A stretch of DNA of 64,000 bases from Corallium rubrum (Eukaryota > Cnidaria > Anthozoa > Scleralcyonacea > Coralliidae). The stretch's first letter is position 1, and each line of letters opens with the position of its first letter. Where the stretch lies: contig OZ036004.1 in NCBI GenBank assembly GCA_964035015.1, positions 10,970,076 through 11,034,075 on the forward strand. The letters run 5' to 3'. The notes under the pieces were generated by a model. It had not been told where the DNA came from. It saw only the letters and a program-made list of their open reading frames with translations, and made no database searches. Positions 16,817-19,527 of this stretch are shown in pieces. The translations under genes and the position numbers were made by a program.

Positions 16817-19527
16817 ATGGCGAGTCACAAATTACCAGTTTGGTTTACCTTATCGGTTGTTCTTTTTACTGGAAGACTTGTTGCCGGGACGAGGATTTAT
16901 ATCGACAATTCTACCGTCCCTAAAAGTGAACTGTTGTCGTTATACCGGCCAGAGAGGACAAATTACACTCTGGTATTTTCGCCAGAACTCCAAATTCTAC
17001 GAGAGCTTCTCAGCATTGATAGTAATACGGGTGTAATAATTTTAACTCGTCGCCCCAAATGTGGCCTTTCATATGGCAGAATATCTGTCGTTACTGTTCG
17101 TTCCACAAGCGTTATATTTCCAACCGTTCACTTTTGGATACCAATTTTAGTTTCCATGAGAGACAGACGACGCTGTGTTGTCGGGAAGAGGCCAAAGTTA
17201 CCTGACAAGATAGCGCGTTCTTGGCGTTCCGCTGTTGGGACTACACGAATTAACGAGAATAACAGGCTTATATATTTGGAGAGAAGACACTTGAAGAAAT
17301 ATTGGTCTGCTAACGATTTTTCGAACCGGTTGCACAAATTAGGTTCAAGAACGAAGCGGGCACAGGAACATGCGTTGGATGCGAAAACGCTCAGACATGA
17401 TGAGGTCGATTACCCCATATCCGATAGCCGCACATTCCAGCGAATTTTGGAGAGAACATTGAGGACGTTCGAAGGAGACCGTATTAGAACTAGACGTAGT
17501 TCGAGAAATACTCAGCCAAATTTTGCGAACCCAAGTAAGCAGGTTTCTGTCTACGAAGACGTCAAAATTGGAACGGAGGTTACCGTCGTCTCAGCCTCGG
17601 ACCCCGACCGCCGTTCGCGTGGCAAGCTCTACTATAGTATGAAACCCATGGGGAACATCAACAGTCAGAATTTCTTTCGGATTCAGAACAATACGGGTCA
17701 AATTCTAACCACGAAGGAACTGGACCGCGAGAGCATGGACAAACATGAATTTCGTGTGACAGCAACGGATGGGGGAAACCCACCATTGCAAGACTCAATG
17801 ACACTAAGAATTAAGGTACTTGACGTCAATGACCACTCGCCAGTCTTTGATAAGAAAGTCTACAGAGAAAAGATTTTGGAATCAGAGGACATTGATTGGA
17901 CTGTGTTAGCTGTCCGTGCACATGATTCGGATAGTGGCCAAAATAAAGAGATTCGTTACAGCATTGTGAATAGTACTGGGGGAGACCAGGTTTTCACTAT
18001 TGATCATATCACTGGAATTGTAAGGGTCGGTGATACATTAGATCGTGAAACAGTTCCATCCTATAAATTGGTGGTAAAAGCTGAAGATCAGGGGAAACCT
18101 CCACAAAGCTCCACTGCAGAGGTTTATATAACTTTGCTTGATGTGAATGATTGTCAACCCAAATTTAATCAATCAAATTATGATTTCAGTGTAGCTGAGA
18201 ATACTCCAAGGGGTACTTTTGTTGGCACTGTCAATGCAACTGATTGTGACACTGGTTTAAACAAGAAAATCAAATACAGTATCACAACAGGGAATGAAGA
18301 CCTAGCCTTCCGCATAGTAACAGATTCTGGTATGATATATGTGAGAGGACCCTTAGATTATGAAGCAAAATCTTCCTACGCTCTGCAGATCAGTGCTGAA
18401 GATTCTGGAGAAACGCCAGAATTTAATGATGTATGGGTTGATATTTTTGTAACAGACATCAATGATTGTAAACCAGAATTCTTGAAGAATGTATACAGAT
18501 TTACAGTGAAGGAAAGTGTTGATACTGGATATTATATAGAAACGGTGCAAGCTCAGGACCTTGACTCTGGGCAGAATGGAGAGATCCAGTATTTCCTAAA
18601 AGACAAGAAACTTCCATTTCAGATTGATTTGGATAGTGGAAGGCTTAAAACAAAGGGAAAACTTGATAGAGAGACAACACCTTCTTATCAACTGGAGATA
18701 ATAGCTCAGGATAAAGGGGAAAATCCATTGAAAAATTCTGTAACTGTTTATATCACTGTTGAAGATGTGAATGACAGTCCACCTTTCTTCAACTAAGCCC
18801 AGATACAATGCCACCATAGCTGAAAACTTTCCACGAGGTCGGACATTTCTAACTGTTGTGGCCAACGATACGGATGATGGTGGTACAATGCGTTATTCAG
18901 TTACAAATGACCCTGATGGTTGTTTTACTATAAAGTCTTTTACTGGTGGTCTTACAAAGACAAGGTCTTGTCGGCTTAATTACAAGAAAAAGAGAGAATA
19001 TCGCTTCAAAGTTGAAGCATCAGATGGCATTCAAAGGTCTTCAGTTGATATTCTTGTGACAATAATGGACTCAAATGACCATGCACCTGTGTTTGTGAAA
19101 CCAAAGTACACTGGCAGAATCTATGAAAACCAGCTTGTGGGAACGACAATTTTGCAAGTCAATGCAACGGATGAGGATTTTGGGGAAAATGCACGGCTGT
19201 TTTATAACATTATTGGAAGTCATGTTTTTAAAATTGACAGCAAAACTGGTGTCATTACTAATTTAAAACGTTTGGACAGGGAAGATAATTCTAAGTACAG
19301 AATCAGGGTGACTGCAACTGATTATGGTAAGCCATCAAAATCTGGTCGGGCTCGTGTGACAATCAATGTTATAGATGTCAATGACAACTCTCCTAAATTT
19401 GACAAAGCCTTGTATACAGTTTCTTTGGAAGAAAATGTTTATGTTGGTACTTTGGTGTCTGAGATGAAGGCCACTGATGATGACGAAGGAGCAAATAAGC
19501 AAATAACGTATTCACTTGCAAAAATTG
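16817..19527 (+). CDS. CELSR: CELSR exon 1: signal peptide, pro-region, cadherin repeats 1-7 (part)
   Basis: Encodes residues 1-903 if the extra T at 18794 is skipped. Residues 1-26 are a signal peptide. A basic pro-region ends in RTRR (224-227), a furin-type site just before EC1 (from about 233). Repeats end in [45 protein letters not shown] and DVNDNSPKF. As written, the frame stops at TAA 18794-18796; the +1 frame continues [11 protein letters not shown] as EC5. Donor G|GTAAGT, phase 1. A giant first exon with most cadherin repeats is typical for CELSR genes. EC5 lacks the usual LDRE motif. Confidence 0.93.

Follow-up and report, generated by a model that had tools for sequence, protein, structure and literature searches.

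The first coding exon of a CELSR/Flamingo gene is interrupted in the printed sequence by a single-base break of frame, and the surplus base is quite probably a one-base consensus or assembly error. The gene lies in the window, that is, the whole stretch of 64,000 bases analysed (C22:10970076-11034075), which belongs to an assembly whose 312 contigs total 474,352,983 bases and whose source appears, from its gene content, to be an animal. The window would thus carry a normal, functional CELSR/Flamingo gene, apparently single-copy, and the surplus base printed near 18791-18794 would most probably be absent from the animal's own gene. An error is favoured because one base less restores an ungapped match to CELSR1 at the junction, because 1903 Pfam-supported codons contain no other stop, and because the domains follow the family order and no paralog was found among the candidates scored; from this we infer that the base originated in the assembly rather than in the animal. 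In biological terms the break is, most likely, no feature at all. An error would have consequences for annotation only, since automatic gene prediction would shorten or divide what is apparently the sole CELSR gene; should every DNA and RNA read carry the base, the alternatives would be a null allele in a core polarity gene and recoding in one.

Identity and architecture of the gene

The first coding exon (16817..19527, plus strand) begins with an ATG, encodes a hydrophobic N-terminus, EC1-EC6 and the first part of EC7, and is closed by a splice donor GT at 19528. Its two halves match Pfam Cadherin at 1.7e-92 and 2.2e-45, and the best PDB match of both, among solved structures, is CELSR1 (8vy2); read through the break, the exon forms one collinear alignment to CELSR1 (8vy2_A, residues 2-692) that is ungapped at the junction. 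The second coding exon (23417..24913, plus strand, edges by splice model) supplies the rest of EC7, EC8, EC9, a following stretch and an EGF domain, with Pfam matches to Cadherin (5.5e-36), Cadherin_CELSR2_9th (1.1e-16, 61.2 bits) and EGF (4.1e-08). The N-terminal part of the protein accordingly holds nine cadherin repeats, with the Pfam Cadherin stretches distributed over three pieces as 4 + 3 + 2 and the intron-split EC7 counted in two pieces. Five repeats (EC5-EC9) were counted after the break, where the first-pass annotation had counted six.

Downstream, an exon region at 25277..36817 (plus strand, edges partly by splice model) encodes EGF domains, two laminin G domains, laminin-type EGF domains and a putative hormone-receptor domain, as identified by Pfam in each open frame, and the succession of EGF, laminin G and laminin-type EGF after the cadherins is that of CELSR/Flamingo. 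Of the EGF and laminin-type EGF matches, one of each (21.4 and 17.5 bits, respectively) falls below its Pfam cut-off, and the others lie above; the hormone-receptor (HRM) match, which covers half the domain in a single open frame, reaches E 0.00013 and 22.8 bits against a cut-off of 26.2. The putative exon region for the seven-transmembrane segments of secretin type (52709..58609, plus strand, edges partly by splice model) comprises three 7tm_2 pieces, at 52672-53268, 55740-56018 and 57998-58609, which match profile positions 30-73, 147-172 and 203-246 in order; scanned singly rather than as one domain, they score 19.6, 16.7 and 16.0 bits, each below the cut-off of 20.6. No Pfam match to GAIN/GPS was obtained in two candidate pieces, 39039-39341 and 46823-47062, which are short exons scanned singly. 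The domain order downstream of the cadherins, taken from Pfam on open frames one by one, is that of the CELSR family. The likeness to CELSR1 (PDB 8vy2) consists of a collinear EC1-EC7, the ungapped EC4/EC5 junction and the later domain order as far as checked, and the difference lies in a well-diverged sequence and in the one-base break of exon 1.

The splice model behind these edges is crude, combining a codon model from 1409 codons of the gene with generic splice matrices and a 40-nt intron floor, and it skips domain-bearing pieces, for example 34729-34917, 36692-36817 and 57998-58609. It proposes 31 exons, several of them weak or without domain support. Consequently, of the earlier description of an otherwise intact gene with 34 exons, the intactness stands as far as checked, with no second stop in the 1903 codons, and the count of 34 is neither borne out nor contradicted.

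Several other features of the window deserve mention. Tandem-repeat records (80 in number) mask 10,616 of the 64,000 bases and include long simple-sequence arrays, some within CELSR introns, and a unit of about 275 bp is present in three tandem copies at 43850-44639, visible as repeated open frames at such spacing. The plus strand at 4243-5787 holds an intact cytochrome P450 frame in one exon, 514 codons long (Pfam 6.6e-93).

The break between EC4 and EC5

The frame of EC1-4 passes through the end of EC4 with its calcium motif and the start of EC5 (18764..18793, plus strand; 10 residues, from GAT at 18764 to the AAC ending at 18793) and meets TAA at 18794..18796, plus strand, the break point according to a single-base-drop scan. 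The next frame is open over 18771..19535 on the same strand and encodes EC5, EC6 and the first part of EC7, and read-through joins it to EC4 in frame. These positions were scored against a junction profile built from five junctions between other repeats of the CELSR gene, of which two pairs include EC7, its parts put together over the first intron of the gene, and one draws on the first 60 residues of EC4. The sequence scores 101.5 bits as printed; removal of a single base, either 18793 or 18794, raises this to 140.0 bits. Given a gain of this size, the break is not a matter of chance, and it is present in the printed sequence. A base dropped at 18791 or 18792 gives 138.7 bits, and all four drops (18791-18794) are stop-free; one surplus base, most probably within these four positions, is the simplest description, and the profile scores do not single out a base. 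The first-pass annotation had recognised a CELSR first exon with a single-base break at this TAA, and had seen that one base less restores the frame; the Pfam, CELSR1 and profile results agree with it on both points, but its choice of the T at 18794 as the surplus base is not upheld, given the tie with 18793 and the scores at 18791 and 18792.

Two missing bases in place of one surplus base were also tried and rejected, since they reach at best 134.8 against 140.0 bits and would lengthen the F-x4-Y spacing. That spacing, as restored by read-through, is the commonest in cadherin linkers: among 80 linkers from 20 fetched stretches the first aromatic stands at offset 4 in 44, no aromatic occurs within nine residues in 22, and an aromatic is placed elsewhere in 14.

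The frame could in principle also be restored by splicing, through removal of a 31-nt intron at 18767..18797 (plus strand; GT at 18767-18768, AG at 18796-18797) or by another short GT-AG excision. This is scarcely credible. Both splice dinucleotides are present and removing 18767-18797 does restore the frame, but the excised sequence scores 106.1 bits, 34 bits worse than the 140.0 of one dropped base, and the excision removes VNDSPPFFN, the calcium motif included, so that its earlier dismissal as an intron is justified. Its 31 nt also compare poorly with the shortest intron of the splice model, at 83 nt, although the floor of 40 nt in that model puts 31 nt out of reach. The trial was confined to GT-AG pairs and comprised 18 excisions in total; the 17 others that restore frame (donors 18600-18793, acceptors 18797-18979) all score below the 106.1 bits of 18767-18797.

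A further alternative is that the full-length receptor arises through +1 recoding, programmed or constitutive, at AAC-UAA-G. In antizyme, +1 frameshifting takes place at a stop codon, and in Euplotes it is likewise reported at stop codons; with these the CELSR site shares a zero-frame stop and a continuation in +1, and it differs from them in its codon context, in the lack of unusual 3' RNA structure and in being an isolated case in the sequence examined. The arrangement of bases is compatible with +1 shifting at a stop, and nothing else supports recoding. No stimulatory RNA element was found near the shift site in the 114 nt 3' of the stop, where pseudoknot-free folding shows no more structure than in shuffled sequence (z = 0.21, with 111 of 200 shuffles equalling or surpassing the natural sequence). 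To our knowledge AAC-UAA is not a known +1 site. Further, it is not evident what purpose a lone site of this type would serve in an essential structural gene, and among 194 cadherin-repeat matches outside the CELSR gene the scan detected no further in-exon frame change. Recoding is on this evidence most improbable, and equally far-fetched is its fuller form, in which a +1 shift at AAC-UAA-G in exon 1 would produce the only CELSR/Flamingo receptor and set how much is made of this planar-polarity receptor and of a secreted fragment comprising EC1-EC4. No earlier case of recoding in a core polarity gene is known to us. The first-pass annotation had offered a consensus error, a null allele and recoding without ranking them; all three are retained here, but the evidence ranks them, with a consensus error first, a frameshift allele second and recoding far behind because the site has no unusual 3' RNA structure, is unlike the +1 sites known to us and is accompanied by no other in-exon frame change detected in the cadherin sequence examined.

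Intactness, copy number and the possibility of a real lesion

Apart from the TAA in exon 1, no stop was found in 1903 codons across 11 Pfam-supported stretches of the CELSR gene, nor in 2085 codons across 15 stretches, four of which (182 codons) have no Pfam match and come from the splice model. The absence of another stop in the 1903 codons limits neutral drift since the break to about 0.3-1.4%: stops by themselves allow a neutral divergence of up to 1.4%, a ceiling that falls to 0.3-0.7% with frameshifting indels at 0.05-0.15 per substitution, and the 2085-codon version gives 1.3% from stops and 0.3-0.6% with indels. A fixed pseudogene, with the CELSR gene dead, is accordingly very unlikely. 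It would account for the stop midway through exon 1, but not for the lack of a second lesion among the Pfam-supported codons, for domain-bearing frames that run on to the seven-transmembrane region, or for the absence of a replacement CELSR gene among the candidates scored.

The 601 bases around the break occur once in the assembly, and no second copy or haplotig of the locus was found there by a search that skips simple repeats and very common words. Among the 50 of 159 candidates scored for exon 1, the top hit beyond the gene reaches 170 bits at 39% identity, compared with 1494 bits for exon 1 itself. Likewise, a 355-residue piece of exon 2, from the end of EC8 to the EGF, brought up no paralog among the matches listed, with 114 of 568 candidates scored; the matches elsewhere, among those listed, involve the last 95 residues (the EGF end) or are two weak cadherin matches at 23% and 28% identity. 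The CELSR gene thus appears, as far as sequence searches go, to be single-copy, and given that no paralog was found a lasting loss would not be buffered.

A second explanation, unlikely but well ahead of a pseudogene, is that the extra base is real and that a heterozygous (or very young) frameshift null allele was taken into the assembly by chance. Translation would then end after EC4, yielding a secreted fragment or a decayed mRNA, and the other allele would keep the animal alive. The presence of one copy of the locus in the assembly would leave that other allele out of sight. The animal may also be polymorphic at the level required, given the differences between similar stretches of contigs C25 and C26, which are possibly alleles or else a duplication, and these differences are similar in magnitude to the neutral divergence, about 0.3-1.4%, that limits how old the lesion can be. 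From that comparison a real lesion would probably have an age within the range of ordinary polymorphism. Against this, CELSR is needed for development in flies and mice and is apparently single-copy here, so that nulls should be rare; mutation-selection balance in an essential gene allows, by our own estimate, about 1e-4 to 2e-3 null alleles per haplotype. For errors the corresponding estimate, also our own, is about 0.3-0.01 per gene for some 9 kb of coding sequence at Q45-Q60.

Accuracy of the assembly and other cadherin loci

Two observations count against a consensus error. Polished assemblies err mostly in homopolymer runs, and the break site is not one; and 50,205 cadherin bases outside the gene yielded no further detected change of frame within an exon. 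The latter figure comes from a control set of 20 stretches chosen by cadherin matches together with the CELSR gene, in which 204 repeat matches exceed 12 bits, 10 in the CELSR gene and 194 elsewhere (50,205 bases with overlaps merged). Among those 194 matches no in-exon frame change was detected, and the CELSR break is the only one in the scan, which detects only in-exon changes with both halves matching the profile. Zero changes in 50,205 bases bounds the rate at about 6e-5 per base, and with no frame change in 50 kb of cadherin sequence the assembly is therefore not grossly error-prone. It is a fair assembly, in which a gene with an estimated coding length of about 9 kb still leaves room for an error. 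Nine other matches to exon 1 contain stops; in the eight inspected (the ninth, on C37, lies outside the fetched stretches) these are at or near the match edge, within the first 13 or last 2 residues, and they fit exon ends and do not look like further breaks. A 7tm_1 survey gave at least 154 matches, with five listed rows containing internal stops, and was not used as an error-rate control because the best candidates were scored first, which favours unbroken frames.

Short indels are reported as the commonest errors of CLR assemblies (PMC8081667), and the collapsing of two alleles is reported to have made false indels too, in Trypanosoma brucei (PMC8445201). An isolated short indel in a coding gene that is otherwise intact is the feature shared with these false frameshifts of long-read or collapsed assemblies (PMC8081667, PMC8445201), and the break in the window would probably belong to the same class.

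Substitutions between the C25 and C26 stretches (L041, L042) amount to 0.75% and 1.2% in the two parts aligned on either side of a repeat-rich middle, with 14 gaps in 7.4 kb; over longer stretches BLAST gives 96.6-96.7% identity. The stretch on C26, a contig of 0.545 Mb, is possibly an unpurged haplotig of C25, and the differences may reflect allelic indels, duplication or errors. Within the window, a hAT-type transposase gene at 6943-9634 on the minus strand consists of three overlapping open pieces with two frame changes in 2.7 kb, its last piece matching Dimer_Tnp_hAT at 3.8e-11; these changes may be ordinary transposon decay or further indel errors, and so point either way.

Other loci emerged in the course of the searches. 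Prokaryote contigs were searched for a relative and gave one cadherin-like locus, of no use for the question of the CELSR break: a stretch at 3001-3894 of L001, on a contig filed under Candidatus Kuenenia, whose best segment is 31% identical to EC5-EC7 residues. In L039, positions 469-2968 consist of N, exactly 2500 in number, next to a microsatellite; this run may be an assembly gap or sequence held back. L035-L036 (C39:4.797-4.807 Mb) contains a single open cadherin frame 3167 codons long. Finally, two large-exon cadherin genes on C12 (L028-L029 at 17.98 Mb and L030 at 18.03 Mb), about 48 kb apart and about 91-97% identical where they match, have the appearance of a recent tandem duplication.
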